Virus record (IMG/VR): IMGVR_UViG_3300009149_000340
Coordinates: 1 to 21,641 of that record
Reading direction: 5' to 3' (one strand)
DNA length: 21,641 nucleotides
From: a virus
A model generated the notes under the pieces. The model searched no databases and was not told where the DNA came from. It worked only from the letters and a program-made list of their open reading frames with translations. Below, piece after piece: positions 6,501 through 21,641 of this stretch (positions are counted from its first letter, which is position 1; the number at the start of each line of letters is the position of its first letter). The translations under genes and the position numbers were made by a program.

Positions 6501-8051
6501 TTAGAACTGCAATATAACTTTAATATCTTCCTTTTGATTTGAAGATCTTGTGATAGATGGTCTATTGTCAACATAAATAATATTTCCAGAATATTTTTTA
6601 ACTTCTGGATTTGCCAAACCATTAGCAAAGGTTTGACCAAGGTAATATGTTCTATTATTTATTGTGGTAGAGATACCACTAAATGAAGTGCTTATGGACA
6701 GATTGCTACTGCCTCCAACGATTGTTAAATTTCCACCTGAAGATGGTGCTGATGTAAATCTAGTAAGGTTATATCCATATGTTGGCGTAGTCTGTGCAGT
6801 TCCAACTGTGTTAAATCCTGCAAGAGTTCTTTCTTGCCAATACTTCAAAACTCCAGTAACTTGTTCGTAACTAATAACTTTACCTACCGCTGTAACTCCT
6901 GTTCCCACAGTTTGGGTTATGAGGGCATCTGGCACAAATGTTACTGAACTGTATCCAGTGCCTGCCAAACGAAGAGCATATGCAGCACTTGCTTTATCTT
7001 GAGACAAAAGTTGTGATGAATTATATGCCAAAGGATTTTCAATAATTCCTATTCTAGCGACTTCATTGCCAGTGATAAAATCTGGATTTTCTAAATCATT
7101 TTCAATTCTTGCATAAAGAAGAACATTAGATGCTCCAAGTTCTCTATAAATGTCATGTCCATGTCCCCCCTGAGGTGGGATAATTACATCTAAAATTGGA
7201 GGTGATGCTGGAGAAGGAACTCCTCCTGCAATTAAATCTACATTAGCAAATGTATATCCAGAACCTTGATTGGATACAGTCATGCTTTCGATCTGTTGGT
7301 CATTATTTACAGTTACTGTGCATTCTGCATTACTTCCATCTCCTCTGATTGGAACTTTTGTATAAGTTCTGTTTGCAGTGCCAACTCCGACTCCCCTGTT
7401 TTTAATTATAATTATTTTAATTCCACCATCAATAGCATTATCTCTGACAGCAGCATTTTCTGCACTAGTTTCCCAATTACTTGGAACTGGTAAGAATTCA
7501 GTTGAATCAAATTTTATTAATTCTGATGGTTTAATTGTATAAAGATATTTCCAAATATAACCATCACCACTAGTACCAGCAATTCTTGGTTCTAGATCTG
7601 TAAATGTGGGTTCATCCAATGATGGTTTTCCATCTGGAGTTTCTGGTGTAGTACCATTTTGTAAGCAAATATAAACTCTATAATCACTATTAACTACAAC
7701 ATAATTTGAAGAATACAAAGATGTTCCACTTGAGTTTTTGGGAACGTTTGCAATATTATAATCGTGGCGATAATAATCGTATGTTATTCCTGATGTCCAA
7801 TTATTCTTTCTTATAACTTGCTTAACATCGCTTGAAGTTATTTTTTTTAAAGCTATTGTTGTGTCCCAATAATCATTTTCTGAATTAAAATTATCTATTG
7901 GACTTGGTGGGGTTGTGTTCCAATCAGATTGAATATTGTTTGGATTTGGTAAACCAATAAATGCATAATAAGAATTTGTTGAAGAACTTACTCCTGCAAC
8001 AAAATTTTTTGCATTTAATATTCTAATTTGATCTGTTATGATAGCAGGCAT
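6501..8051 (-). CDS. 8: Baseplate wedge protein gp8
   Basis: Complete 516-residue T4 gp8 homologue; in T4, gp8 is a dimer in the wedge that contacts gp7 and gp10. Supporting motifs, in order: YAFIGLPNP near the N-terminus; ENDYWDTTIALKKI with VIRKNNW (T4 has a Trp followed by IPRRDW at this point); GDGYIWKYLYTIKPSE (T4 GDGYVWEYLFEIPPD); GHGHDIYRELGA at about 294-305; RIGIIENPLAYN (T4 ISIITNPLEA); and the terminus IIYVDNRPSITRSSNQKEDI (T4 MIYMENRPPIIMAMDQTEEI). T4 gp8 is about 334 residues. The extra ~180 lie in the middle and second half, including one GxGY module (about 235-285) and a segment ending LKYWQERTLAGF. The ATG at 8051 follows an 18-nt spacer that is A/T except for one C, with no purine Shine-Dalgarno. 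The TAA is 6 nt before the next ATG. Confidence 0.93.
   Translation of the reverse strand: MPAIITDQIRILNAKNFVAGVSSSTNSYYAFIGLPNPNNIQSDWNTTPPSPIDNFNSENDYWDTTIALKKITSSDVKQVIRKNNWTSGITYDYYRHDYNIANVPKNSSGTSLYSSNYVVVNSDYRVYICLQNGTTPETPDGKPSLDEPTFTDLEPRIAGTSGDGYIWKYLYTIKPSELIKFDSTEFLPVPSNWETSAENAAVRDNAIDGGIKIIIIKNRGVGVGTANRTYTKVPIRGDGSNAECTVTVNNDQQIESMTVSNQGSGYTFANVDLIAGGVPSPASPPILDVIIPPQGGHGHDIYRELGASNVLLYARIENDLENPDFITGNEVARIGIIENPLAYNSSQLLSQDKASAAYALRLAGTGYSSVTFVPDALITQTVGTGVTAVGKVISYEQVTGVLKYWQERTLAGFNTVGTAQTTPTYGYNLTRFTSAPSSGGNLTIVGGSSNLSISTSFSGISTTINNRTYYLGQTFANGLANPEVKKYSGNIIYVDNRPSITRSSNQKEDIKVILQF
7190..7345 (-). repeat. GxGY module inserted in gp8
   Basis: A single unit (IESMTVSNQGSGYTFANVDL) plus a proline-rich linker sits in gp8 before GHGHDIYRE. 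T4 gp8 as I remember it has no equivalent here. It matches the repeat family in the neighbouring gp7-like protein. Confidence 0.7.
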
Positions 8052-8062
8052 TTTATGTTTTT

Positions 8063-8074
8063 TATTTATTTATG
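8063..8074 (-). promoter_or_regulatory. Possible T4-type late promoter ahead of gp8 (CATAAATAAATA)
   Basis: The minus strand reads CATAAATAAATA across the gp7 stop codon and the gp7/gp8 spacer, giving two overlapping ATAAATA boxes. The T4 gp55-dependent late promoter is TATAAATA at -10, and cyanophages use similar boxes. Placed this way, transcription would start near 8061 or 8057, only 6-10 nt before the gp8 ATG, which is a very short leader. In DNA this AT-rich a chance match is quite possible. It is the only such box I saw in an intergenic gap here. Confidence 0.35.
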
Positions 8075-11000
8075 GGAGGTAATTCTGGAATTTTAATGTT
8101 TTGTTTCTCTTGACAACGGGACCTGTTTGAATACCAACAACACCTTTTGTAGTAATAGCATCATATGATTGGAGTTTATTTCTCTCTGACAGTAGGAGTC
8201 TTCCCCAACTGTATTCTCCATAAAAATCACTATATCCAAGTCCTGGTATTGTTAATCCATTAAAACTGGATACGCTAACAGTAACTCTAGTTACAACTGT
8301 CACGCCAAGACCAATCGCACCTGTTGTTGCAGCTCCTACACTAACAACTCTATAGATGTTGTCTAAGAATGAGGTCCCAACTCCAACAATAGAATTATTT
8401 TCTCCTAAAGAAGTAACACCATTTCCAACATTAGAGTTATATACAATGAAATAATAACCGGTATCAATCCCACTTCTAGTTGTATATGAGGTAACATCCG
8501 AATTTCTTAAAGATGAATATTGTGGAATGACCAAATCAAATGTGATTCCAGTTACAGCAGTTCCAACTGATGTTGTTCCAATTCCGGTAATAATTCCAAA
8601 ATCTCCCTCATACGAAACAATAGTATTATCTTCTTTGGTAAAGGTTGGTGGACTAATTAATACTACAGGAGGATTTGTGCCAGTGTATCCAATTCCAGGT
8701 GATGTTATCGTTACACTTGAAACCGTTCCACCAACAGAAATATTTGTTGTTGCAAGTGCTCTAGCAGTTGTTCCAAGACCAATTGGATTTTGAATATTAA
8801 CTTCTGGGTTTGTTGAATATCCAACTCCACCTCCAGAAATCTTAACAGATGTTATTGTACCTGCAATAGAAACTATAGCAGTTGCTGCTGCAGAAACTTT
8901 ATCAGTGTTATTAACAATAACAATTTCTTTTTGAAATCCTACATTAAGTATATTTTCATTTGTTGGATTAAAGAAAGGTCTAACATTATCAACAAAAACT
9001 ATAGTAGATCCTATACCAACACTTTGAATTAAATATGCTGATGGAGCAATAAGAGGTTCATACAATTCTCTTGATTTATTTATTACTCGACCATCAATAA
9101 TTCTATCTTCAGTTTGTCTGCACCACTCAACAGGTCTATAAAGAGTGCTATCTTCAGAGAGACCTGGACCATAATAAACTGTTGTATCAGCTGAATTAGA
9201 AGAAACAACTTCTGTTACTGTTCTTGCAGTTTGTTGTAAAAATGATTTTTGATTAAGAGAATTAGCATATTCAATTGTTAAATCATCCCCCTCTTTTACA
9301 GTGTTAATTATTTCTACATCAACAACATCAGTACCACCAGTTCCTTTATAAAAAATAAACTTAACTGTATCGCTAGATTTTGGAGCTTCGTCAAATGTTA
9401 TACTACTTCCACCAGTAAATGTATAAGATTTTCCTGGAACTTGAAGAATATCATTAATAAAGATTAAAAGTGTGTCTTGAATAGTAATATTTGATCCTGC
9501 TCTTGCTTGAATTGAGAATCTATTGCCATTACTACTAATTGGAAAAGTTTTTCTATTTCCATTAAAAAGACTAGAAAAATCATCTAATACTTGAAGTTGT
9601 CCGATAGACCAAGCAGAGAATGAATCTTTATCAACTCCTAATATTGTGGTTTTAAACTCTTTAAAGTTTGCACTTGAAGTCGTTGGAATTCCAGTCAATC
9701 CTCCAATAGGAACTGTTAAAATGTGTCCAACACCGTATCCATAACCCGTATTTGTAATTTCAAAGTCAATAACGCTAGATCCTTGTCCAACAACAATATT
9801 AATTTTTCCTTGAGCTCCTCCGCCACCAGAAGATTCTGAACTATAAACTAATGGAATATTTACATATGAAAGTGGTGGATCAATTACAACATATGGTGGG
9901 TTAGTTGAAGTATATCCAACACCTGGATTCGTAACAGCAATACTAACAATATGTCCATTACTAACAACAGCGGTTCCAATAAATTCAATGTTTGGAGTTT
10001 CTCTAGAAGAAAGTGCAACACCAACACGAACAGTTTGAACACCAACTCTATATCCAGAACCACTATTTCCAATACTTACTAGTGATATTGTACCTGCAGC
10101 AGAAACAACTGCAGTACCACCTGCGCCTATAAGTGGTTGATATCCAAATCCTTCGGTTGACCCAACAGAAACAATTACTCCTCCAACAGGAATATTTGCA
10201 TTATTTGGATCATAAGCAACGGAACTTGCTGTTCCTGTAAATGAAATTGTTGTAATTCCAGATGCTTCATTTAAAGTATAATCATATGCTAATTCTGGTC
10301 CTTGGAATATACCATTAATTAAAACAATTGCATTATTAGTTGCTACTCCGATTACATTTGAGTTATTAGATGTAAGTCTGAAGTTTTTTTCTTGTCCAGT
10401 AAACTTTTGAGAAATATCATCAAAAAGATAATTTGTAGCATAAGATTCATTTGTTCCGTCTTGAACTCCTGAGCGTGTAAAGACTCTTCCATTAAAACTT
10501 GATGACGTAGAAATTCCAATCCAATCTCTATATTGTGGAGGGTCTGTTATAGTACCAATCGGATTATTTCCATATGGTGCTTCAATAAAATTAATTATAT
10601 TATCAACAATATTATAGTTTCCATCAATTTTTGTTACCTTTGCTCCAGTAGAGTGTCCGGCAAGAGCAGTTCCAAGCCAAGATCTGGCAACTTTAATTGC
10701 ATTTGTGCTTCCAATTCCAACACCAAGAATTTTCATAATCTCAGTATCTATTTGAACATAATCAGCGCCAAAGAAGGATGTTATTCCAACAAAATATGCA
10801 ATATCTTCTGTAACAAGAAGTTCTCTATCTAAGGATGTTGTAATTGAAGTTCCAACAATTGGAGATTGTATAGCATTATCAATTGATATTAAAACTTTTT
10901 GATTTTGATTTTTTGAAGTTAGACTATGAGATGTTCCAATACCAACAGAGATAATATCTAAAGGCACCGGAATTCTCTTAAGAGCATTTTCTGCAGTTGC

Positions 11001-13214
11001 TGCAAATTTTATCTTGCTTTCACTAATTTTAATTACATATACAGATGATGGAAGTTTATCTGTACTTCCAAATCCAGTGATTGTTGTTGTTGCTATACCT
11101 ACACAATTAGTGGTAATTCCAGTTTGAGGTGCGTATGAAACTTCTTCACCACTTACAAAGAAGTGATTTGGGAGAATCAGTGAATCATCAGCAATGCTAA
11201 TAATAGTGTTGTCAGATCCATCAAATACTCTCTTGAAAATTGGATTAGTTTTGTGAGTTAAATTAAAATCTTTTTTAATAGTGGCTTCAGTTCCAGTATA
11301 AACAACAAATCCACTATCAATAGAGGCATTATTAAAATCTTTATATGCTTGTCCAGATACATTTTCAGTAATCCTAAGGGCATGTGTTAGAGTTTTAACA
11401 TGAAAATTGTTTGTAGTGCTTGGTGTAAATGTTAATTCAGTAGTATCTCCAGTTCTCCTTCCACCAAAAGTTCCTAATCCAGAAGAAGTTTCAATATTAC
11501 CATATTCCGTTAAGTAAATTTCATTGTTGTCGTCTAAGATTATAATCTCACAAAGTTGATGTTTATTGTTTGTGGTATCAGATACTTGAACCAAACAATA
11601 TGCAGCATCATAATCATTAAAATAACTTGCAACACCAACAGTAGTTGCAGATCCAATAGTTGTTGATTTTGCAGTAAGTTCTCCATATGACATTGCAAAT
11701 GTGCCAAGTCCTGTATATGCCTCAGACGAAATTGCAACTACAACGGTATTAAGTTTAGCAGTTACAATTCCAACTGCAGGTGTATAATCAATTTTAATAT
11801 TGGAACCAGAAAAATATGGATGATACGTTCCAAGACCAGAAGAAGAAAATGCATCTGAAGAATGTACACTTAACTGTCCATATTCTAACATTTCAATTTT
11901 TGTTCCATCATGTATAAGATTTAATTCTTCGTATTCACATCTACCATCATTGGCTTCAATATTAACCAAAATTTTCGCAGATCTTGTTCCAGAAGAAGTT
12001 GTTCCAACTCCTGCTAAAGTCACCATTGTTTGTGCAATTGCTCCATTAGCAAGAATGCTAGAAGTTGCAATACTAACTAGTGCGCCAGGGAATCCAGATG
12101 CACCAGATACCCCTATCGTGGTGCTTCCAATTGAAGCAAGGTTTGTTGTACCCATATCAAGCGTATCAATGTTGTATGCAAGTGGAACAACATTATAATT
12201 GTTTAGAGTATATTTAACAGGATAAAACAGAAGAACTCCCTCAGCACCATCAATGACATAATCAAAAGAACCAAGATCAAGAACAGATTCGACTCTTCCA
12301 TACTGATTAATCATTGAAACACCACGGCCGATGTCATTTAACACACTTACAATCATTATTTGTCTTTCACGATTGTAAAGTCTATCTCTTACATATACGA
12401 TGAATTTTTGTGCTCTTCCATCTTCAAGTCTTTTTCTAAAAACTTCTGTAAATGGAGTAGTTCTTGGATTATTATTAAATTCTCCACTAATATCATCAAT
12501 AGTTAATACTCTATTAGAAATTGACTCTGCATAGTCTGTTAAAATACGTGTTTTAAAAATTATTTCATCGGAAAATGCAAGAGTATTATTTGTCAAATAA
12601 GTTTCAGAAACCAAATCAAAATTAGGAACACAATTTAAATCATAAGAACTGATTAAATCAACTATAGTTGTTGTTGTTCCTGTAGGGCGGAGTGTCAATG
12701 AATTTGCTGATAATAAAGGAAGTTGAGATTCTACTTGAAGATTACCAAATTTTTTAAATCCAGATGTATGGTTTAAAGAACTTACCGCATCATTCCACTC
12801 TTCATACGGAACTTTTGATTTAATTGAATATGAAAAATTTTGATAATAGTCATTATCATGAATTCTTTGAAGTTCATTATTTAAAAATCCTGTTGAATAT
12901 TCCCAACCATTTTCAACTATAGAATAATAATCCAAATCATAATTAGATGTAAAAGATACAACCTCGCTTATTAAACCTGCAGCACCAGTTTGTGGTGAAT
13001 TGATTATTTTTCCAGTTACGAATGTATCAATAGTTTCAACAACAAGGTAATTATTGTCCCGATCCCAATCAAAAACAATTCCTGATGATTTTCCATCAGT
13101 AACTTCATCAGATTTAAAAAACTCATTGACTTTTAAAATAGGATTAAATTGTGGAAAATATTTTTCAGGAACTAATGTTGCAGATGAAGTTTGTGTGTCA
13201 AAATTACCTGGATA
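8070..13214 (-). CDS. 7: Continuation of the gp7-like wedge protein in the -1 frame (C-terminal ~1714 residues)
   Basis: The frame is open from just after TAG 13217-13215 to TAA 8072-8070. The only plausible initiation codon near the front is TTG 12935 (1621 residues), but convincing protein precedes it (YPGNFDTQ, VPEKYFPQF, VFDWDRDNNYLVV), so I do not accept it as a true start. About 30-65 residues after that TTG come DNDYYQNFSYSIKSKVPYEEW and HTSGFKKFG, resembling T4 gp7 SRSYYVMKIKSNLP...W...HPVGFG. This ties the fragment to the same protein as the upstream frame. Further along are two internal duplications (11375-11945; 9340-10425), two GxGY blocks and the conserved-looking end CRQTEDRIIDGRVINKSREL ... 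YGEYSWGRLLLSERNKL. Adding one base makes 20218-8070 exactly 4050 codons including the stop. As sequenced it has no good start or ribosome binding site of its own. Confidence 0.85.
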   Translation of the reverse strand, partial: YPGNFDTQTSSATLVPEKYFPQFNPILKVNEFFKSDEVTDGKSSGIVFDWDRDNNYLVVETIDTFVTGKIINSPQTGAAGLISEVVSFTSNYDLDYYSIVENGWEYSTGFLNNELQRIHDNDYYQNFSYSIKSKVPYEEWNDAVSSLNHTSGFKKFGNLQVESQLPLLSANSLTLRPTGTTTTIVDLISSYDLNCVPNFDLVSETYLTNNTLAFSDEIIFKTRILTDYAESISNRVLTIDDISGEFNNNPRTTPFTEVFRKRLEDGRAQKFIVYVRDRLYNRERQIMIVSVLNDIGRGVSMINQYGRVESVLDLGSFDYVIDGAEGVLLFYPVKYTLNNYNVVPLAYNIDTLDMGTTNLASIGSTTIGVSGASGFPGALVSIATSSILANGAIAQTMVTLAGVGTTSSGTRSAKILVNIEANDGRCEYEELNLIHDGTKIEMLEYGQLSVHSSDAFSSSGLGTYHPYFSGSNIKIDYTPAVGIVTAKLNTVVVAISSEAYTGLGTFAMSYGELTAKSTTIGSATTVGVASYFNDYDAAYCLVQVSDTTNNKHQLCEIIILDDNNEIYLTEYGNIETSSGLGTFGGRRTGDTTELTFTPSTTNNFHVKTLTHALRITENVSGQAYKDFNNASIDSGFVVYTGTEATIKKDFNLTHKTNPIFKRVFDGSDNTIISIADDSLILPNHFFVSGEEVSYAPQTGITTNCVGIATTTITGFGSTDKLPSSVYVIKISESKIKFAATAENALKRIPVPLDIISVGIGTSHSLTSKNQNQKVLISIDNAIQSPIVGTSITTSLDRELLVTEDIAYFVGITSFFGADYVQIDTEIMKILGVGIGSTNAIKVARSWLGTALAGHSTGAKVTKIDGNYNIVDNIINFIEAPYGNNPIGTITDPPQYRDWIGISTSSSFNGRVFTRSGVQDGTNESYATNYLFDDISQKFTGQEKNFRLTSNNSNVIGVATNNAIVLINGIFQGPELAYDYTLNEASGITTISFTGTASSVAYDPNNANIPVGGVIVSVGSTEGFGYQPLIGAGGTAVVSAAGTISLVSIGNSGSGYRVGVQTVRVGVALSSRETPNIEFIGTAVVSNGHIVSIAVTNPGVGYTSTNPPYVVIDPPLSYVNIPLVYSSESSGGGGAQGKINIVVGQGSSVIDFEITNTGYGYGVGHILTVPIGGLTGIPTTSSANFKEFKTTILGVDKDSFSAWSIGQLQVLDDFSSLFNGNRKTFPISSNGNRFSIQARAGSNITIQDTLLIFINDILQVPGKSYTFTGGSSITFDEAPKSSDTVKFIFYKGTGGTDVVDVEIINTVKEGDDLTIEYANSLNQKSFLQQTARTVTEVVSSNSADTTVYYGPGLSEDSTLYRPVEWCRQTEDRIIDGRVINKSRELYEPLIAPSAYLIQSVGIGSTIVFVDNVRPFFNPTNENILNVGFQKEIVIVNNTDKVSAAATAIVSIAGTITSVKISGGGVGYSTNPEVNIQNPIGLGTTARALATTNISVGGTVSSVTITSPGIGYTGTNPPVVLISPPTFTKEDNTIVSYEGDFGIITGIGTTSVGTAVTGITFDLVIPQYSSLRNSDVTSYTTRSGIDTGYYFIVYNSNVGNGVTSLGENNSIVGVGTSFLDNIYRVVSVGAATTGAIGLGVTVVTRVTVSVSSFNGLTIPGLGYSDFYGEYSWGRLLLSERNKLQSYDAITTKGVVGIQTGPVVKRNKTLKFQNYLP
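8650..8890 (-). repeat. GxGY beta-repeat modules in gp7-like protein (block 5)
   Basis: Units AGTITSVKISGGGVGYSTNP and GTVSSVTITSPGIGYTGTNP, each followed by a V-x-I-x-x-P strand and an alanine-rich linker. These are the best-conserved copies in the window. Confidence 0.78.
9340..10425 (-). repeat. Duplicated 'DD-S-F-G ... NG-Q' tail-fibre-like module in the gp7-like protein
   Basis: Copy 1 (10425-10225) reads FDDISQKFTGQEKNFRL, then AIVLINGIFQGPELAYDYT and ITTISFTG. Copy 2 (9590-9340) reads LDDFSSLFNGNRKTFPI, then LLIFINDILQVPGKSYTF and SITFDEAP. This 60-70 residue module (DDISSQFNG..., then a V-L-N-G-V-x-Q-E-P-G strand) is one I know from many phage tail and fibre proteins. A GxGY block lies between the two copies. 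Confidence 0.75.
9870..10130 (-). repeat. GxGY beta-repeat modules in gp7-like protein (block 4)
   Basis: Units AGTISLVSIGNSGSGYRVGV and GHIVSIAVTNPGVGYTSTNP with PPYVVIDPP. The second closely resembles the second unit of the block at 8650-8890 (SVTITSPGIGYTGTNPPVVL). Confidence 0.75.
11375..11945 (-). repeat. Internal domain duplication in the gp7-like protein (two ~65-residue copies)
   Basis: Copy A (11945-11730) runs CEYEELNLIHDGTKIEMLEY, G-LGTYHPYFSGSNIKIDYTP, then KLNTVVVAI. Copy B (11565-11375) runs LCEIIILDDNNEIYLTEYGN, GLGTFGGRRTGDTTELTFTP, then VKTLTHALRI. The order of the motifs (x-E-x-x-x-L/I-x-D-x-x-x-I-x-L/M-x-E-Y-G, G-L-G-T, I/L-x-F/Y-T-P) is the same in both, with a linker of about 55 residues. 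Confidence 0.72.
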
Positions 13215-16200
13215 CTACCAGCATTTACATAATCACTCATGCTATATGTTACAATTCCAACTCCTCCACCAAGATTTGGATGAATTTTAGTTATGGTGAA
13301 TAATGAATAATTGTAAGAAGATGAATTATATCCCCTTCCAGTTGATCCAACACCAACGCTTGCCCCTTCAACTAAAATTTTGTCATTAACAGACAATGGG
13401 AAAGAATCACTATATTGTGTTTTCATTACTGCAGTTACTTCTTTAGTTGAAGTATTGTAACTTAAAGTAGAAACTCTAATTCCATTTGGATTTTCTACTG
13501 GTAGAATTGTTGGTAAAGTGTTTGATAGTTTAAAACTATTTTTAATTATTTCTACCTTATCTTTACCCAAAACATACTGCAAATCCACATCATCAATTAG
13601 ATTCTTTGTTTTACCATCAAGAACCACAAGTCTTGGTGATATAGTATATCCAATTCCAAATGATGAAATTCCAATGTAATCAAATCCCGTCAAAGGTTCA
13701 ATTTTCAAGACTTGGGGGATGCTAGCACCTGGTTTAAGAGTTAAATCTGATGAATAATCAAATCCAATATTTTCTATTTTAGTGGTTTTAATTTTTCCAA
13801 TTGTTTCACTTGATGCTTCTAATATTGCACCAGTACCATAAGTAGAAGTAACTGTTGTAATTCCGGGTACTTTTGAATAACCTTTTCCTTTATCGCTAAT
13901 TTTTATAGATGCAATAGATCCAAAAGAATTGAAAGAGTTTGTTGTATAACTTAATTGAGATTGTGTTGAATCATAAGAACTAGATTCCGGATATTTGTTT
14001 AAATTATATGAAAAAGTATTTTGAGTGTAATTTGAAACAGTGAATTTTCCACTATAATTACTATTTTTAATTATAATTTGATTATTTAAATCAACACTAT
14101 CATCAACAACAATTTCTTTATTGCCCAGTAAATTGTCTGATGTCCTAATGGGAACAAGTTTATAATAAAGAATGTTTGGAGTGTTTTCATTAACTTTAAA
14201 GTTAACCTTTGCATCGGGAGTGACTCCTATTATTCCAGTTTGAGAAATATCAAATGTAGATTCTATGCCACTAGTTTCATATCTTTGAGTAAAAAGGTAG
14301 TCTCTATAAAATTCAAGAATAAATCCAGGATACTTAGTACTACTTTGGGTGTAAGATAAAGAAGAATCGTTAAGATTAAAGGAAATTGTAGAATTTCTAT
14401 AAAAAGTTAATGGGGGGTTTACTGGAGAAATTGTTCCAGAAGATTGGGTAGATATATCAACAAAATTGGGAATAGATTTTTTAACTTCAAATTTATTATT
14501 GGTTAATTTAATATTATCTGTATCTACAACATAAACAAAATATTCTTTATCATTTTGCAATCCACCGGCAGGAGAAGATGAATTGTGAATTATTTTTTGT
14601 CCAGTAATTAAACCATGACTATTCAAATAAATTGAATTTGAAGTTGTTCCAACGCCAGCAGCGGTAAAACTTAAATCCGTCGATAATAGTTTTCTATTTG
14701 GAAGATTGTATTTAAAAGTTACTGAAGTGGAAATAGATGGGTTGACACTGATTTCTATATTATCCCCTAACAATAAACCATGAGTTGCAGCTGTTGCAAC
14801 TGTCACAACATTTTTTTCTATATTGGATTTGATAACGTTGGGATAAGATATTTTAAAACTATGATGTGTTCCTGTCCCCAATCCAACAAAATGTAAAAGT
14901 CCTTGGTGAGATGTTGTGGATCCAATTCCTACAAAAGTTCCGGTAGTGCCAAGACCAACGCGAACAGTAGAAAGTCCAATGAGATCATTACTTAATTTTG
15001 CAACATATAAAGTAGTATTGTTTATAAGATTGTGAGTTGTTCCTCCACCAACCGTTGCTACGCCGATAGTGCTTCCACCATTAATTTGATAAGTTATTTC
15101 ATCTCCAGTAGTTAATTTATGATTTTCTAAGTAAATTGATCTTGTTGGTATGAAAATTTGAGTAATGCCTGCCCCAGGATTTGCAAAGAATAGTGTTATG
15201 CCTATTCCAACTCCTACATTGGTTCCCAAACCAACAGATTCTTTAGGATCGAAATAATATTCTTTGTTTATCTTGTCATCAAAAGTTGTTTTATATCCAA
15301 CATTAATTGTAAACTTTCTTGGCAACTCCTTTATAGATGTAGTTGCTGTGTGAGCTGCAGATACGGACCCCTCAACTTGCCTTAAAACTCTAATTCTTGA
15401 GGAAAGTCGATCAATATTTAAAACTTGGATTTTTTCCGTTCCAATTCCTAAAATATCATTTTCTCTGATGTTTAAAGAACTAAGATTGCTAGAAATAGAA
15501 AAATAAGTTACTATGCCTGTTACACCAGTCGTAGAAACTCCCGTAGACAAATTTAATATATTTGTTGTAACCCCAACAGAATATATGCCTTCAATTAAAG
15601 ATGATGTAGTCGAAACACCAGAAACAATCACAGTATCATTAACTTTAAGATTATGTGGTGCTGTATAAACACCTACAAAATTACCATTTCCATTTAATGG
15701 ATAAAATTCAACATTTAAAAGTTTTGTGTTTGCAACACTAATTGTCCCGACACCAACTCCTGATAAACGAGAGACCTTTGCAGAAGCAGAAAATCCTTTA
15801 GTTGCATTATTACTAAAAACAACTTTGTCATTTACTTGATACTTTCTTCCTCCGGTAAGTATTCCAATTGAATCTACAGACCCATTTTCAACAAATTTTA
15901 TGATAGAATTTTGATTTACATATTTGTAAGATTGATTTACGTATTCATATCCACTGTATTTTTTATCGAGAGAATATGGATATACATTTCTGATCCAATC
16001 ACTATTGTTTAAATCATAATCATTTTGATTTGAACTTTTTTTAGTATTAAATTCACTTGGTTTAGAATTAAATGAATTGCCAATCAAATATGGAAAACTT
16101 GGTTTTTTATAATTTTTAAATAATCCATCTGAGGAGGGAACAGGGTCAAAAGTTGCAAAATATGCATAAGTTCCATGTGGAAACTCTGGAGTAACACAAA

Positions 16201-19200
16201 ATCTTCCATTATTTTCATCAAGAACAGTTTCATCTGAAGAATCTATCCAAGTAAAGTCTTCAACAAAAAATTCTGGTGGAAATACACTAGTGGGTGGTCT
16301 ATTTGATTTTAAATCAGATATATATCCAGATTTAAGTTGAGAAACTATTCCACCAGACTTCGTAGTATATCCATAAGGTCCATATATTGGATAACCATCA
16401 TAAGACCACCCAATAATTGGGGAATGATCTGAGTTAGTAATTTCCTGTCCATTAAGTAATGTTAGATCCTTTTTGCCATATAAGGTGTTTCCATCAGCAT
16501 CAGTTGCGTAGAGAACTCTTCTAAGAGCTCTTGGTGCATATACATAGGAAGATTGTAATCCAAAATCAATATTTGTTGGTTTTGAAATAAAGGTATCATC
16601 TTCGGTTAGATTATTGTAATTTTTTCCAAATTGATTTACTCTCCAAGTTTGAAGACTAGTTTTAAATTCTGCTCCAACACCAGCAGGCTTTACTGTGATA
16701 AAAGTTGTTGAAACTCCATATCCAACACCTCCATTGTTTATTTTAACAGAAGTAATAACTCCATTAGTAATTTCCGGTGTTAATACTGCTCCTATTCCAG
16801 TACCAGAAATTGATAATTGAGGGGAAGCGTTATAACTATTTCCACCACTGTTAATTGCAATACTAACAATTTTTCCTTGAGAAATTATTGGGGTTAACTG
16901 TGCATTACTACCAGAATATAGATTAATAGACGGATATCTTTCAAAGTTAAGTACTTCCGATGCACCATAACCAACACCATTATTTGATAAATGTATAGAA
17001 GTAATTTCACCTCTAACTATTGGTTGTACAATTGCTTTAAAAGTTTCCTCGGAAATTGAGGATAATCCCACTTTTCCAATAACTTGTACAGAAATATCTG
17101 GATAATTGAAAGTATGAGTTCCAAGTCCAACTGAAGTTAAGTTTTCATATTGTCCCGTTTTAAAATAAAAATCTTTTACAGTTGTTCCAACTCCTACTGC
17201 TGATAATTTAAAAGAATTTTGATTTATAGATGTAACATAATATTCTAATAATGTAGAAAGTCCAACAATAGATGTGCCATCAACAGAATACTTAATTATT
17301 TCTCCTGTCTTATAATCGTGATTTTGAATACTAACGACTCCTAATGCAGTATTAATTCCAGATACACCACAAGTTCGTTTTTTATTTTCATATCCAACTC
17401 CACTATCAGTTATTATAATTGAATTTAAAATTGCTTTTCCATTTAAAGAACTTAGGGCATGAACACCACTACCATAGTCTGTAAAAGTTACTGTATTAAT
17501 TCCAAGAACAGCATCATTCAATGTTTTATGAAGTTTTATATTATAATCATTTTTTACTGACACATGGTAGATTGCTCCAGTATCAAGACCAACCAATGCA
17601 CTTCTACCAAAAGTTTTATAAACTACTCTTTCAGTATTTCTAAATTTATGATAGGTAGAGAATCCAATAGATGAATTAGTAGATCCAATTCCAATAGCTG
17701 TGCCAATACCAGAAGCATTGAAAGAAACTTCATGGGGAATAGTAATTAATTTTGCATCTGCTTTCGCACCTTGACCGTTACCGCCACTAATTTTGATTAG
17801 TGGGACTTCTATATAATCAAAACCAGTATTAAGAACTTTAATATCAACAAAAGACCCTTTTACAGAACAATATCCAGTTGCTCCAATTCCAATTGAATCT
17901 GAAATACTTAAAATCGGAGGAGAAATTATATCGTAGTTTGCTCCACCGGAAACAACATCAATAGAATTAATTTTTCCATAATAAACAATGTCTTTGGATT
18001 TATAGTTTAAAATTTCTACGCCGTTAACCAAAATTCCATTATAACCAACTGTCGTTTCATATGTTTTTCCATCATTAACGGGAGAAGATATTTCTCTCAA
18101 TAATTTTTGAGGTTCTATTAATTTATTCCTATATTCATATTTTTCAATAGTATTATTTTTAATTGTTAATGTATTACTAGTGTTTCTGCCACCATCAGTT
18201 TCCACCTTTACAAAAATCTGATTATAAATGTTTGATATACTTTTTGCCAATTTTATACTTTTATTATCAATTCTTTTGACAAAATATAAACCTTCATTAA
18301 AAAGAAAACTAATTAAATATTCTTGTAATATAGGTACGCCACCAACATCTGTAGTAAGAACAGATCCCTTTTCTGGGGTATAGTAAATAGAATCTCCTGT
18401 AAAAAAATTATGGTCTATAACATTTGCAAAAGTTAAAATCTCTTGATCTTTATTAAAAGTTCCACCAAAAGTTATTTTTTGTGTTTTGGGTCCAAACTTT
18501 ATTCCAGTTGGAGATAATGGTTCTCCAAAAGACGGTAAAGAAGTTGACGCAACTAAAATTTTATCTTCTTTTAAATAAACATTTTGTACATTAGATGTAA
18601 TTTTATTAAGATTTTGGTGTAGATTAGAATCTATTTTGGTAATATTTCTTGTTACTCTAGCAATAGACAATGTATCAGTGATTCCAGTTCCTCTTATTAA
18701 ACATGTTTGACTATTAAAAACATCATAAATAAGAAATTTATTCGATAAAACATCATTATTTTTATTAGTTAAAGAAATTCCATCACCTATTCTAAAAATA
18801 TTAACATCTTTTGTTGTTAGTCTATAAGTATTGTTTGTAGAGTCTACTAAACTTAGGGAAGAAACATCATAACTTTGGGCAGTATTAAATAACCATCCGT
18901 TTTCTTTTATACCATTGGCAATTTTTCCTAATGTTTTAAGTTTAATTAAAGAACCAGATTGTTGATATTTTGTATTACTGGGTATTTTAAATTGATTTAG
19001 TACTGATCTTATTTTTATTCTAATTCCATCCGTTGTTCCAGCACCAGCAGCATATGCATAAGTATCTTGGTCAATATCAGTTTTGTCTAAAATTGTTGTT
19101 ACAATTGCGTTAGTTGATATTCCCAAAAATTGAGTAATTGTTTTGTCGGAATAAGTTAAAATGCCTGTTGTTCCGTTATTATAGGAAAAAGATAAAGTTC

Positions 19201-20218
19201 CAATTTTGGGAAATCCAACAGTAGAATCAACATCAATAAAAGTCTGTCCAGCACCAACATTACCTATAATTTTTGTTTTAGGATGAATAGATAAAGTTCC
19301 ATATAAAAGTTCAGCAGAACCATCATTTTGAGTATAAGACCCATCAATACTTACTTTATAGTAAGAATTTGTCAAGATGCCGACAGATATTCTCTCTACA
19401 TTTGATACTGGTGCATATGCCTTTGAAATATTTTCAAATGAATCTTGAAAAAGAGTTTTATTTAACAATTCAAATGGATCACCAGAAACAGATTGTACAA
19501 TTAAATCTCTTGTTTTTTTATAACTAGCATTTGATGGTGAAATTACATAATCTCTTGGTTTTATGACACTTACTTCTTCACCATAAAGAGATTTAAAAAG
19601 AATCTTAAACGACTCATCTGTTCCTCTAGTCGAATAAAAATCTTTTGATTGACGAATAAATTGTGGTTGATTTAAATTATTAGTAAGATTTTTACCCTGT
19701 AGTCCAGGTAAAAATTGTTTTTTAACTTTTTTTAGAAATTCTTCTAAAAACAGAACATTAAGATTTTCTACTATAGAGTTATTTGAATGATCTTTTGCTG
19801 TAGAAGTAGAAAAAATCAAATCTTCCGAATTGCTTGGATCTGTAAAGGAAGTAATTCCACTAAATCCTCTTACACAATTAACAAAAGAAAAAATTGTTTT
19901 ACTAGTATATGTTATTATTTCTTCATCAATTTTAATTAACCCGTAATTTGCAGGAAATCCTTCTGTATTTTCAACAAGAATTGTTCCACTAAAAGAGTCA
20001 ATATCGCTTACAAGAGTTGTAGATTTTGTAATTTTTCCGCAAGAGTCTAATTTAATATATGAATCAATATTTTGAATTAAATCAACAGGAGCTCCTTGAT
20101 ACTCTTGCCCCGAATAATATTGAGATAAAAATTCACCAATTAATGGAAATTCCTCTTGAACATAAGAGGGTAATTGACTTTTTACAATTTTATTAAACTG
20201 AACTCTTTTTTCTGACAT
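13172..20218 (-). CDS. 7: Giant gp7-like baseplate wedge protein, N-terminal 2348 residues (frame broken at 3' end)
   Basis: Structural wedge protein. By position (after gp6, before gp8) and motifs it corresponds to T4 gp7. Residues 15-55 (LPSYVQEEFPLIGEFLSQYY, then YQGAPVDLIQNIDSYI) and 193-216 (DFYSTRG ... LFKSLYGEEV) resemble the C-terminal region of T4 gp7 as I remember it; the long N-terminal part of T4 gp7 has no counterpart here. Residues about 1225-1360 are a YHYH-type domain (HSPIIGWSYDGYPIYGPYGY from H1265; NGRFCVTPEFPHGTYAYF with H1348). The rest is Gly/Thr/Ser/Val-rich and repetitive: GxGY modules and at least six HxLxTGDxI-like motifs. The ATG lies 5 nt after the gp6 stop, with only a weak AGAAG upstream. 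The frame stops at TAG 13174-13172 in a poorly protein-like tail (ILTHKLHLQH), while the adjacent frame continues as convincing sequence. I read this as the first part of one 4049-residue gene. Confidence 0.87.
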   Translation of the reverse strand: MSEKRVQFNKIVKSQLPSYVQEEFPLIGEFLSQYYSGQEYQGAPVDLIQNIDSYIKLDSCGKITKSTTLVSDIDSFSGTILVENTEGFPANYGLIKIDEEIITYTSKTIFSFVNCVRGFSGITSFTDPSNSEDLIFSTSTAKDHSNNSIVENLNVLFLEEFLKKVKKQFLPGLQGKNLTNNLNQPQFIRQSKDFYSTRGTDESFKILFKSLYGEEVSVIKPRDYVISPSNASYKKTRDLIVQSVSGDPFELLNKTLFQDSFENISKAYAPVSNVERISVGILTNSYYKVSIDGSYTQNDGSAELLYGTLSIHPKTKIIGNVGAGQTFIDVDSTVGFPKIGTLSFSYNNGTTGILTYSDKTITQFLGISTNAIVTTILDKTDIDQDTYAYAAGAGTTDGIRIKIRSVLNQFKIPSNTKYQQSGSLIKLKTLGKIANGIKENGWLFNTAQSYDVSSLSLVDSTNNTYRLTTKDVNIFRIGDGISLTNKNNDVLSNKFLIYDVFNSQTCLIRGTGITDTLSIARVTRNITKIDSNLHQNLNKITSNVQNVYLKEDKILVASTSLPSFGEPLSPTGIKFGPKTQKITFGGTFNKDQEILTFANVIDHNFFTGDSIYYTPEKGSVLTTDVGGVPILQEYLISFLFNEGLYFVKRIDNKSIKLAKSISNIYNQIFVKVETDGGRNTSNTLTIKNNTIEKYEYRNKLIEPQKLLREISSPVNDGKTYETTVGYNGILVNGVEILNYKSKDIVYYGKINSIDVVSGGANYDIISPPILSISDSIGIGATGYCSVKGSFVDIKVLNTGFDYIEVPLIKISGGNGQGAKADAKLITIPHEVSFNASGIGTAIGIGSTNSSIGFSTYHKFRNTERVVYKTFGRSALVGLDTGAIYHVSVKNDYNIKLHKTLNDAVLGINTVTFTDYGSGVHALSSLNGKAILNSIIITDSGVGYENKKRTCGVSGINTALGVVSIQNHDYKTGEIIKYSVDGTSIVGLSTLLEYYVTSINQNSFKLSAVGVGTTVKDFYFKTGQYENLTSVGLGTHTFNYPDISVQVIGKVGLSSISEETFKAIVQPIVRGEITSIHLSNNGVGYGASEVLNFERYPSINLYSGSNAQLTPIISQGKIVSIAINSGGNSYNASPQLSISGTGIGAVLTPEITNGVITSVKINNGGVGYGVSTTFITVKPAGVGAEFKTSLQTWRVNQFGKNYNNLTEDDTFISKPTNIDFGLQSSYVYAPRALRRVLYATDADGNTLYGKKDLTLLNGQEITNSDHSPIIGWSYDGYPIYGPYGYTTKSGGIVSQLKSGYISDLKSNRPPTSVFPPEFFVEDFTWIDSSDETVLDENNGRFCVTPEFPHGTYAYFATFDPVPSSDGLFKNYKKPSFPYLIGNSFNSKPSEFNTKKSSNQNDYDLNNSDWIRNVYPYSLDKKYSGYEYVNQSYKYVNQNSIIKFVENGSVDSIGILTGGRKYQVNDKVVFSNNATKGFSASAKVSRLSGVGVGTISVANTKLLNVEFYPLNGNGNFVGVYTAPHNLKVNDTVIVSGVSTTSSLIEGIYSVGVTTNILNLSTGVSTTGVTGIVTYFSISSNLSSLNIRENDILGIGTEKIQVLNIDRLSSRIRVLRQVEGSVSAAHTATTSIKELPRKFTINVGYKTTFDDKINKEYYFDPKESVGLGTNVGVGIGITLFFANPGAGITQIFIPTRSIYLENHKLTTGDEITYQINGGSTIGVATVGGGTTHNLINNTTLYVAKLSNDLIGLSTVRVGLGTTGTFVGIGSTTSHQGLLHFVGLGTGTHHSFKISYPNVIKSNIEKNVVTVATAATHGLLLGDNIEISVNPSISTSVTFKYNLPNRKLLSTDLSFTAAGVGTTSNSIYLNSHGLITGQKIIHNSSSPAGGLQNDKEYFVYVVDTDNIKLTNNKFEVKKSIPNFVDISTQSSGTISPVNPPLTFYRNSTISFNLNDSSLSYTQSSTKYPGFILEFYRDYLFTQRYETSGIESTFDISQTGIIGVTPDAKVNFKVNENTPNILYYKLVPIRTSDNLLGNKEIVVDDSVDLNNQIIIKNSNYSGKFTVSNYTQNTFSYNLNKYPESSSYDSTQSQLSYTTNSFNSFGSIASIKISDKGKGYSKVPGITTVTSTYGTGAILEASSETIGKIKTTKIENIGFDYSSDLTLKPGASIPQVLKIEPLTGFDYIGISSFGIGYTISPRLVVLDGKTKNLIDDVDLQYVLGKDKVEIIKNSFKLSNTLPTILPVENPNGIRVSTLSYNTSTKEVTAVMKTQYSDSFPLSVNDKILVEGASVGVGSTGRGYNSSSYNYSLFTITKIHPNLGGGVGIVTYSMSDYVNAGSIQVILTHKLHLQH
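13174..13217 (-). other. Frame junction inside the gp7-like gene (apparent single-base loss)
   Basis: The upstream frame ends at TAG 13174-13172. The downstream frame is closed above by TAG 13217-13215, so the switch must fall in this 44-nt overlap. The change is -1 (one base missing). Two placements give sensible protein. One T lost next to AGT at about 13215 would read NAGS-YPGNFDTQ. One T lost from the TTTT run at 13203-13200 would read VI-FDTQ. The first looks more natural because it keeps YPGNFD. There is no canonical X XXY YYZ slippery heptamer in the zero frame (the nearest is A ATT TTG) and no clear hairpin just downstream. Assembly or sequencing error, genuine mutation and recoding all remain possible; I favour error or recent mutation. 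Confidence 0.8.
13640..13920 (-). repeat. GxGY beta-repeat modules in gp7-like protein (block 3)
   Basis: Units SIKISDKGKGYSKVPGITTV, IKTTKIENIGFDYSSDLTLK and GISSFGIGYTISPRLVV lie in succession near the end of the upstream frame, about 450 nt before the frame junction. They follow the same pattern as blocks 1 and 2. Confidence 0.7.
16085..16545 (-). other. YHYH domain inside the gp7-like protein
   Basis: Residues about 1225-1375 of the upstream gp7 frame. The block YAPRALRRVLYATDADGNTLY leads into DHSPIIGWSYDGYPIYGPYG (D1264, H1265), then LDENNGRFCVTPEFPHGTYA (H1348) and YFATFDPVPS. These are the hallmark segments of the YHYH family as I know it, which is found mainly in bacterial extracellular proteins and also in marine phage structural proteins. 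Its activity is not established to my knowledge. The exposed setting in a baseplate insert suggests a surface role, which is inference. Confidence 0.8.
16670..16890 (-). repeat. GxGY beta-repeat modules in gp7-like protein (block 1)
   Basis: Two adjacent units of roughly 35-40 residues with the pattern 'G-I-(V/T)-S-I/V-x-I-N-x-G-G-x-x-Y ... S/P-x-I/V-x-I/V ... G-x-G-A'. The copies are GKIVSIAINSGGNSYNASPQ and GVITSVKINNGGVGYG. They are divergent at DNA level, so they are old duplications. The composition predicts short beta strands separated by Gly turns. Confidence 0.75.
17750..17975 (-). repeat. GxGY beta-repeat modules in gp7-like protein (block 2)
   Basis: Units SIDVVSGGANYDIISPPILS and FVDIKVLNTGFDYIEVPLIK, followed by SGGNGQGAKADAKL. 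The spacing and strand pattern match block 1, although GY is replaced by NY and DY. Confidence 0.7.
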
Positions 20219-20223
20219 TTCTT

Positions 20224-21641
20224 CTATCTAACAATGCTTTCGTTATGATAACTTGAACTTACTTTATAATTTGAACCTGCGGGGTCTAACCCAGAACTAA
20301 TTTGATCGATAATCATCTCAATATTACTTCTACTACTATCTAGTTGCAAATACAAATCCTGTAAACCAATTACATCATTAGAATGTGGAACTGTGGATAT
20401 CTCCATAATCTGTTGTCCATTTTTTAATTTTCCCGAAATAATATTCACAGGATTAAGAGTAATACGACCCTTCACATAATCTATCTTACCAATATTTTTT
20501 CTTTTAACAACTGAAGTGTTTGATCCCGGTGATTGAAGACAGAAAAATGAAACAGTCCCAGTTTTTCTATCAAAATTTGGAATATCAAACAAATAAACAT
20601 CATCAGATATGTCGGCAACTTTAAATGCACTTGATCTTATATTATAACCATTCATTGAAGAAACATGAATTTGATTTCCAAAATCAATTGCATATTCTGC
20701 AAATGTATTCAAAGCAATTCGCAAATCTCTTCTCATTTGAATTGTTGTAATATTTGATGTTATAGATGAATGACTTTGATCGATTACCTTCAAAAGTTTA
20801 CTATATTTTAATCTTGCTCCATATCTATTTAATTCGGATGATTCTGCATACTTATTAATATTTGATTGAACTACAGTCGATACAAATGCAGAATTTGGAG
20901 ATAAATTGCTATTATAGTAGACTTTGCTGTCTACTTCAACATATAAGTATTTAAGATCTAAAATTTCTGGAACGATTCCAGCTACTGCATACTTTCTTAA
21001 GTCTCTTTTAATGTTTTCTTTGATTGAATTGGATACAAAATCACCAATTCTTGGTTTTATACTTATAAAAACCTTTCCATATTGTGGTGGTATTAGATCT
21101 TCGCCACCAAAAACTGAAATTGACTCTGCTTCTGGATAAATTTTATTTGGAATTAAAATTTCATAATCATTTGCAGTTAAAGCTCTATTTTGTGTCGAAT
21201 AAACTTGAGGTGCATACTTCCTAACTGAGTCAATACTTTCAATTTGCCCACCACCACTTGATGGTCCACTCGCACTAATTAAAGAAATTCCACTTGTGAC
21301 CGTATATTCAATTGCATTTCTGTTATATGTTATTTGCCCGCTAAAAGTAAAGTTAGAAATGCCGTTTGCAGAGTCTCCATCAGTAACAATATAAGAAACT
21401 TCTATGATATTACCGTCTTCTAATTTTTTTCCAAATATTCCATCACCAAATACAAGTTCATATTGTTCATCTTCAATCTCATTTGTAAAATAAATCGCTG
21501 AATTTTGATTAATTACAAAACTAGTTGTACTATCGAAGAGATTGTCTTGTTTTGTATATTTAACTGATACTGTAGATGAGATACTTGGCTTTACACTGAC
21601 CTGCAAACTATCTAAATCAATGCCTGCGTTAGGTAAAACAA
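20224..21641 (-). CDS. 6: Baseplate wedge protein gp6, C-terminal 471 residues (5' end outside window)
   Basis: T4 gp6-type (baseplate J-like) wedge protein; in T4, gp6 dimers link neighbouring wedges into the ring around the hub. Seen: the stretch FGDGIFGKKLEDGNIIEVSY, followed by YAPQVYSTQNRALTANDYE, IYPEAESISVFGG, PPQYGKVFISIKPR and VAGIVPEILDLKYLYVEVDS, all of which I recognise as the conserved C-terminal half of cyanophage gp6. The frame is open to the window edge. The TTG at 21606-21604 is an internal Leu codon, not a start, because eleven further in-frame codons (VLPNAGIDLDS) precede it. T4 gp6 is about 660 residues, so roughly the last two thirds are present. It ends in TAG 5 nt before the gp7 ATG, which implies co-transcription and perhaps coupled translation. 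No frame damage is seen. Confidence 0.93.
   Translation of the reverse strand, partial: VLPNAGIDLDSLQVSVKPSISSTVSVKYTKQDNLFDSTTSFVINQNSAIYFTNEIEDEQYELVFGDGIFGKKLEDGNIIEVSYIVTDGDSANGISNFTFSGQITYNRNAIEYTVTSGISLISASGPSSGGGQIESIDSVRKYAPQVYSTQNRALTANDYEILIPNKIYPEAESISVFGGEDLIPPQYGKVFISIKPRIGDFVSNSIKENIKRDLRKYAVAGIVPEILDLKYLYVEVDSKVYYNSNLSPNSAFVSTVVQSNINKYAESSELNRYGARLKYSKLLKVIDQSHSSITSNITTIQMRRDLRIALNTFAEYAIDFGNQIHVSSMNGYNIRSSAFKVADISDDVYLFDIPNFDRKTGTVSFFCLQSPGSNTSVVKRKNIGKIDYVKGRITLNPVNIISGKLKNGQQIMEISTVPHSNDVIGLQDLYLQLDSSRSNIEMIIDQISSGLDPAGSNYKVSSSYHNESIVR

Follow-up and report, generated by a model that had tools for sequence, protein, structure and literature searches.

This report concerns a giant gp7-like protein encoded in a 21,641-base IMG/VR virus fragment (IMGVR_UViG_3300009149_000340), referred to below as the window, which means the whole stretch of DNA analysed. 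The long genes of the window are carried by the minus strand and comprise the end of gp6, the gp7-like protein in two frames, gp8 and a gene for a DUF4815 protein. The position of the giant gp7 between gp6 (20224-21639) and gp8 (6501-8051) was confirmed, and the order gp6-gp7-gp8 is common to T4, SynMITS9220M01, P-SSM2, phiN3, Moby, HTVC008M and P-HM1. The protein family is already known, being labelled gp7 in several GenBank records and annotated as PHROG 2885, and the PHROG 2885 profile spans both frames of the window (profile positions 5-2282, then 2290-3355, of 4179; E 0 each). A single-sequence phmmer search of both frames against the PDB gave no match. In tblastn searches the first frame matched 463 phage records and the second 371, nearly all of them named for cyanobacterial hosts; the best match, SynMITS9220M01, is 54 % identical to the first frame and encodes a single uninterrupted 4,067-residue protein. 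The two frames and the stretch at which they change are as follows.

13172..20218, minus strand: first reading frame of the giant gp7 (2348 residues, P0001); PHROG 2885 'baseplate wedge subunit', E 0 over residues 1-2329
8070..13214, minus strand: second reading frame of the giant gp7 (1714 residues from stop to stop); PHROG 2885 continues; one frame in relatives
13172..13214, minus strand: frame-change stretch, a break treated as contig-specific; the five closest loci are open across it

The five closest loci (L002-L006) are 75-82 % identical to the window over the C-terminal flank. The whole gene is open as a continuous 4,051-codon open reading frame (ORF) in L002, L005 and L006, and L003 and L004 are open across the break site as far upstream as they reach (515 and 1,007 codons, respectively). 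Since all five are open across the site, the break was treated as specific to the window contig, that is, as an assembly error or a damaged copy. Broken gp7 copies found elsewhere (L028, and L072 with a stop) have their breaks at other places. The annotation of Aeromonas phage CC2 (L166 1-3497) divides its gp7 region into two coding sequences separated by a gap, a further split that is either natural or due to sequencing. Apart from the frame break, the window gp7 is an ordinary member of the giant Kyanoviridae gp7 family ('baseplate wedge initiator', PHROG 2885; P-SSM2, S-SM2, SynMITS9220M01), occupying the same place and having a similar length (4067 residues in SynMITS9220M01, 5195 in P-SSM2); only the contig-specific break sets it apart from them.

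A sequence-only reading of this DNA had proposed that one gp7 core is split by a giant insert between two motifs, here called A and B, lying about a hundred residues apart in T4 gp7. Both motifs were found where they had been placed, the distance between them in T4 was measured at 104 residues, and both flanks match the same T4 protein, in order. The parts of the core are listed below; compact gp7s are relatives with a short spacer between A and B, such as those of Xanthomonas phage X1, Stenotrophomonas phage Moby and Pseudoalteromonas phage XG4.

20033..20218, minus strand: N-terminal helical segment (residues 1-62), candidate for the core bundle; matches compact gp7 13-69, hhalign E 2.2e-19
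19784..20035, minus strand: short additional stretch separating the helical segment from motif A (about residues 62-145, limits judged by eye)
19565..19660, minus strand: motif A (residues 187-218), equivalent to T4 gp7 727-758; from profile searches of the PDB and the T4 genome
12744..12848, minus strand: motif B, equivalent to T4 gp7 ~862-890; from a broad profile with bridging compact gp7s

The motif A profile, built from the first 260 residues of 22 sequences, ranked T4 gp7 first among 177,635 PDB sequences (E 1e-5). In a search of the whole T4 genome gp7 727-758 was the sole match (E 2.3e-8). Enterotoxin chains also appeared in the PDB search at E 0.04 and worse and were taken as chance matches. 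The link for motif B was established through the compact gp7s: the giants' motif B matches those of X1 and Moby (~500 residues) with E 5e-8, and a broad profile of 16 sequences, with no T4 row, matched the T4 genome just once, in gp7 where motif B was expected (E 5.2e-5; 8.7e-6 against T4 gp7 by hhalign). A profile of B made from giants only was weak in the same comparison with T4. L072 was left out of the alignment for the B-flank owing to its stop codon, and L080 was also left out of the rerun. The A and B profiles found nothing below an independent E-value (i-E) of 0.5 in 12 control proteins, which included gp6 of four phages and the HTVC008M VrlC protein and some of which were cut short (window gp6 and DUF4815 protein by the contig ends, HTVC008M gp059 by the locus end). 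Both motifs were present in 20 of 20 named gp7s, mostly picked via a flank match, and in S-CREM2; motif B was weak in six T4-type gp7s of the named set (i-E 6e-4 to 0.043). Longer alignments to a T4 gp7 profile were obtained with compact gp7s (phiN3 10-206, E 6e-10; Dv7757 8-283, through B, E 5.4e-8), the best shuffled sequence scoring 0.01.

The helical segment of the giant matches compact gp7s, and these match T4 gp7 from residue 636 on. Motif A starts at about residue 180 in the giants and at about 90 in most compact gp7s. In giants about 85 additional residues separate the helical segment from motif A; most compact gp7s have no room for them. T4 gp7 (1032 residues; PDB 5IV5, 5HX2) shares with the window protein motif A, the first half of domain V and motif B in the same order; unlike it, T4 gp7 has ~640 residues before the helical domain and only 104 between A and B. 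The T4 N-terminal domains (1-640) are absent from the window gp7, where A starts at residue 187 as against ~727 in T4. This absence had been pointed out from the sequence, but it is probably not a loss in the window protein: since 78 of 79 compact rows have the start of motif A no more than 250 residues from the beginning of the ORF, the long N-terminus was taken as a T4-type and not a gp7-defining trait, probably added in the T4 lineage.

Other N-terminal arrangements were also observed. In cyanophage Syn2 gp7 (L178 14150-25747; the gene runs off the record end) motif A lies near residue 692, with ~500 extra N-terminal residues that are matched by GxGY-type tiles. A compact-spacer gp7 (L216 897-6962) has motif A only at residue 1448, following a very long N-terminal extension of its own. 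The HTVC008M protein carrying A and B (L173 7727-10777) is annotated 'head closure Hc2', and A and B were not found in the examined part of a later gene labelled 'baseplate wedge initiator'.

In T4 gp7 domain V lies between A and B (Pfam Gp7_5th, 766-861), and the extra residues of the giant were mapped relative to this domain.

19343..19474, minus strand: first half of domain V (residues 249-292), equivalent to T4 gp7 ~779-814; from profile alignment and tiled T4 windows
13032..19342, minus strand: insert (from about residue 293 to second-frame residue 61, about 2110 residues); right boundary uncertain
12966..13031, minus strand: candidate second half of domain V (second-frame residues 62-83); weak alone

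A profile of residues 183-345 (135 sequences) aligned 90 columns to T4 gp7 ~725-814 (E 4.3e-14), reaching into domain V. With motif A excluded (residues 220-345), the top three of 38 T4 windows all hold domain V (P 2e-4 to 3e-4; next window 0.029). The segment before B, taken together with B, aligned over 71 columns with T4 (P 9.4e-5). Because the first half of domain V follows A and its second half is weakly matched before B, the insert most likely sits within domain V, leaving it near T4 residue 816, and comprises ~2,110 residues. The previously proposed insert of about 2240 residues holds as the A-to-B spacing, which is 2240 in the close relatives L002, L005 and L006 and within the giant range, and is too long for the insert itself, which is nearer 2,110. 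Likewise, not everything between the motifs is extra as had been supposed, at least the first half of domain V being kept, and the insert of ~2,110 residues most likely lies inside that domain.

The comparison of predicted structures was made with a compact gp7, using an alignment of 44 rows reduced to 42 by removing X1 and one near-duplicate. The AlphaFold2 (AF2) model from these 42 sequences (pLDDT 75) was compared with 350,542 PDB chains, three of which matched at E <= 1e-3: 5hx2_A, named T4 gp7, together with 5iv5_BJ (1,004 residues) and 9f4a_A0 (1,031 residues), whose PDB entries had already yielded gp7 with the motif A profile. In VIA, residues 1-437 of the model aligned with 5iv5_BJ 641-896 over 229 residues (Z 9.3). 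The GxGY part of the model (259-335) resembles domain I of the T4 sheath protein gp18 (99-188; Z 8.2, root-mean-square deviation (rmsd) 2.7, 76 residues), and the two are also linked by sequence (E 4.6e-4). Here and below, papers cited by PMC number are represented by the available parts of their text; according to one of these, gp18 domain I protrudes from the tail, does not take part in sheath-sheath contacts and binds the baseplate and the retracted long fibres (PMC3004832). Domain I thus decorates the sheath, whereas segments related to it are repeated inside the giant gp7, linked to it only via the compact gp7s. In the compact model the GxGY barrel is flanked by two pieces (133-219 and ~376-381) that match one EF-Tu-like barrel, a weak match that would fit nesting of the GxGY barrel within domain V. 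The EF-Tu-like matches of the model (Z 5-6.6) were also considered as a marker of the domain V barrel and were too weak for this to be claimed.

Within the insert and its modelled block the following segments were recognized.

17759..18208, minus strand: GxGY segment (residues 671-820); its tile profile matches the compact spacers of X1 (250-318, 2.6e-5) and Moby (250-320, 8.5e-4)
17438..17740, minus strand: FCCH-like barrel (residues 827-927) in the AF2 model; VIA Z 8.9, rmsd 2.3, 78 residues aligned to a ubiquitin E1 chain
17099..17386, minus strand: second FCCH-like barrel (residues 945-1040); phi92 endosialidase 256-338, Z 7.6, rmsd 2.3, 71 residues aligned; E1 (4p22_B) Z 7.2
16409..16858, minus strand: GxGY segment (residues 1121-1270); tile matches Moby, X1, XG4, Mosig and HTVC008M
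16145..16441, minus strand: YHYH-family domain (residues 1260-1358) without the YHYH signature; PF14240 E 1.2e-20, profile positions 87-183 of 193
15509..15958, minus strand: GxGY segment (residues 1421-1570); tile matches X1 243-296 (5.4e-10), Moby, Mosig and HTVC008M
13709..14158, minus strand: GxGY segment (residues 2021-2170); tile matches HTVC008M 485-558 (1.1e-12), Mosig, Moby and X1

The spacers of compact gp7s were thus matched by four insert segments, and also by two tail segments, of the window family. Residues 700-1440 (77 sequences) were modelled by AF2 with pLDDT 89.7 and pTM 0.77, and this block is conserved (43 % mean column identity, alignment A9). Foldseek of the block against the PDB gave nothing at E <= 1e-3, so the FCCH reading depends on VIA Z values of 7-9 (a Z below 8 may reflect mere arrangement), on the assignment of the E1 region to the FCCH domain and on one motif. 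The E1 region matched by the barrels we take to be the FCCH domain, with which the HxLxTGD motifs presumably go. Seven HxLxTGD matches were found, and the one in the modelled block (residue 966) falls in the second barrel.

The YHYH domain announced from the sequence belongs to the family by Pfam (PF14240, E 1.2e-20), but the string YHYH itself is present in none of the 182 ORFs carrying the domain. Nearly all of 170 rows have YAYF at a strongly conserved later position, and in a Deinococcus (plasmid) member of PF14240 the string GVYHYHG lies upstream of the part matching the giants. Among the proteins tested the YHYH segment matched only S-PM2, P-SSM2, P-HM1 and Syn2; T4 gp7 has no YHYH-family domain by Pfam, unlike the window gp7, and canonical YHYH copies were sought in 14 control genomes with none found. 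A metal-hydrolase role has been predicted for YHYH domains (PMC7824862). Such a role seems unlikely in the giant gp7, because the signature is gone.

Insert length was compared across homologues. The loci came from homology searches with the best 80 taken per search, so that the spacer counts show range and not frequency, and rows with identical A-to-B segments were dropped (226 IMG/VR ORFs to 209; 79 compact rows to 75). The 209 deduplicated IMG/VR ORFs fall into 75 compact (spacer 95-937) and 134 giant (2,112-2,477; median 2,202, standard deviation 64), with none between the classes; S-CRM01, S-PM2 and S-CREM2 fall there (~1,100-1,630). In named gp7s the spacer measures 104 residues in T4, 136 in Dv7757, 217 in XG4, 289 in X1 and Moby and 400 in Mosig, then 552 in HTVC008M, 832 in phiN3, 1,116 in S-CRM01 and 1,615 in S-PM2, and finally 2,255 in P-TIM68, 2,256 in SynMITS9220M01, 2,259 in P-SSM2, 2,377 in P-HM1 and 2,743 in Syn2. 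The compact gp7s of X1, Moby and XG4 have the same core, the same insert site and GxGY motifs, and differ from the window protein in having 419-503 residues in total, a spacer of 217-289 and only 53-74 residues after B. The three compact spacers of at most 113 residues are all without a GxGY-like motif and look like bare domain V, whereas 71 of the remaining 72 contain one or more (2.3-4.3 motifs per spacer by size class vs 0.5-2.3 in shuffles). Across these alignments the A-B site appears as a general growth point, occupied in other phages by inserts of widely differing size. The simplest reading of the series is growth by repeated addition of GxGY barrels, cyanophages having acquired FCCH-like and YHYH-family domains as well. 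The split-domain mapping of gp7 and the spacer growth series are new, and a ladder of natural intermediates from ~100 to ~2,400 residues is now available.

A second expansion, a separable tail of ~1,550 residues after motif B, had been missed by the sequence-only reading.

8070..12722, minus strand: C-terminal tail (about 1550 residues), separable module; its own ORF in L065 and L071, and also in L050, where the split lies further on

In L065 and L071 gp7 ends ~100 residues beyond B, and the tail is encoded on its own by an ORF of ~1,500 codons, 37-40 % identical. These tail ORFs (L065 10778-15284, L071 10770-15270, L050 11828-15371) lie before gp8 and show two split places. Among 68 giants with a closed end, five have tails of less than 900 residues. 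Blast of the tail against the insert gave only weak matches (best E 0.002), therefore the tail is no plain copy of the insert, and two tail tiles match compact spacers too.

It is likely, in our judgement, that the window protein is the gp7 wedge of a marine T4-like cyanophage with its core split by the insert, and that insert and tail are peripheral modules serving as a brace or platform. The helical segment and motifs A and B would form the core bundle and the trifurcation with a gp6 dimer, as in T4 and XM1, and baseplate assembly and triggering would proceed as in T4. The core bundle and trifurcation with a gp6-type/TssF dimer are described for XM1 gp17 and for TssG of the type VI secretion system (PMC10457771, PMC6300606). 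XM1 gp17 is very small (242 residues) and is likened to the giant from these papers, not by sequence; because A and B are kept, the giant is expected to join gp6-type chains like these counterparts. The insert would be a rigid series of packed beta-barrels reaching outward from domain V to the periphery of the baseplate. T4 gp7 carries the gp10 pins through its separate domains (PMC3004832), and the insert may replace these outer T4 parts, i.e. the gp7 N-terminal domains and the gp10 pins held by them, as brace and platform. Together with the DUF4815/VrlC-type protein it might in this way support the host-binding parts, and the tail after B could be a second, separable peripheral module. The extra mass of the giant gp7 lies in the insert and the tail, the long N-terminal part of the T4 type being absent. 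The S-CREM2 homologue ORF122 (1,937 residues; motif A at 179-236, B at 1862-1922) was identified in virions from 91 unique peptides covering 27.2 % of it (PMC10665884). As this coverage (~527 residues) exceeds the 312 residues outside the A-B spacer, at least part of the S-CREM2 insert is made and packaged, on the figures available from that paper.

Several observations weigh against this interpretation. The giants-only motif B profile (33 sequences) had no match in the T4 genome and matched only one unrelated PDB sequence (E 0.71); by hhalign it met T4 gp7 at the expected place, weakly (E 0.002, probability 14 %). The T4 helical domain (Gp7_helical, T4 643-689) sought directly in the giant gave no match, nor did domain VI of T4 gp7 (920-1012) in tiled windows of the giant. 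For the segment before B alone the top three of 38 T4 windows hold domain V, but with P only 0.014. The structural match to the core was obtained on the compact gp7 model and not on the window protein's own core; the pTM of this model is low (0.50), and its rmsd of 20 A to 5iv5_BJ means that the pieces match while the hinge angles differ. The adjacency of gp7 and gp8 is not strict, one extra ORF lying between them in S-PM2 and P-TIM68 and two in S-CRM01 and Mosig. The absence of gp10 pins is argued from the window region and from papers and not from the whole genome, and it is by inference that the insert is placed at the baseplate rim.

The host-contact or bracing role first suggested for the insert is likewise inferred. 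If the insert itself were the adhesin, its barrels would bind the host surface directly and vary to change host range. The second FCCH-like barrel does resemble parts of phage endosialidases in VIA, S-PM2d081 (the S-PM2 gp7 homologue) is among the very large proteins with late mutations in host-phage co-culture (PMC9910659), and YHYH domains have been linked to host recognition or to a predicted metal hydrolase (PMC7029224, PMC7824862). Against this, the spacer length is nearly constant in the 134 giants, the modelled block is predicted to be rigid and is well conserved, and none of the 182 ORFs retains the YHYH signature. The near-constant length and the rigid model make a brace or platform seem to us more probable than a free adhesin, and we regard the adhesin reading as possible though rather unlikely.

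Two further explanations question the identity or the integrity of the gene. The protein could be a functional replacement or fusion, some other scaffold at the gp6-gp8 slot that shares short generic motifs with gp7. T4 gp7 is stated to be absent in cyano- and pelagimyophages and seemingly substituted by VrlC (PMC7029224), gp7 is listed among non-cyanophage core genes (PMC3037559), and the strong match to T4 covers only ~34 columns. However, motif A matches gp7 alone in the T4 genome, the match extends into domain V, compact gp7s such as phiN3 and Dv7757 align with the T4 gp7 profile over longer stretches, and the control proteins gave no comparable match with A or B, all of which makes a replacement highly improbable. 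The split of the core around domain V argues against the printed statement, in the available part of PMC7029224, that these phages lack gp7, since the protein lying between gp6 and gp8 in the pelagiphage HTVC008M and the cyanophage giants carry both motifs (HTVC008M motif A i-E 3e-5). The frame change between two long ORFs could also mean two real gene products by design, from separate genes or a programmed frameshift, and gene fission after motif B is known in some relatives. The window break precedes B whereas these fissions follow it, L002-L006 are open across the site (L003 and L004 up to the ends of their contigs) and the other broken copies are broken elsewhere, so that designed products are hardly to be expected.

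A broader proposal can be made only tentatively, and we consider it doubtful in its full extent: that domain V is a growth point of contractile-phage baseplates generally, that a barrel like sheath domain I entered it once and multiplied stepwise, and that the cyanophage version is a new outer baseplate tier replacing the T4 gp7 N-terminus and the gp10 pins. If this were true, one protein would account for both the 'missing' gp7 and the missing pins of marine T4-like phages. T4-like cyanophages abound in the sea, and a study of the tail structure of the Anabaena myophage A-1(L) reportedly exists. The literature search found no baseplate structure of a marine T4-like cyanophage, and nothing relevant to cyanomyovirus baseplate tomography was among the matches listed. 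No description of the gp7 split was found among the open-licence PMC matches listed, as far as their available text goes, which is not proof of absence. The outer baseplate is now testable through one protein, one insertion site and defined boundaries.

The neighbouring genes of the window are as follows.

20224..21639, minus strand: C-terminal part of gp6; PHROG 219 E 2.7e-120, Pfam Gp6_C-I 8e-6, slightly below the cut-off
6501..8051, minus strand: gp8; Pfam Phage-Gp8 3.8e-15
3..6494, minus strand: DUF4815 protein; Pfam DUF4815 1.6e-58; runs off the contig and occupies the slot of the relatives' VrlC-annotated gene

The VrlC annotation is found at the slot of the DUF4815 gene in P-HM1, HTVC008M and phiN3. 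GxGY-type strings were also seen in the window gp8 (residues 263 and 364) and in the DUF4815 protein (1968 and 2014), their counts slightly exceeding those in shuffles. As a guess from these strings, the barrel may have spread into the proteins adjoining gp7.

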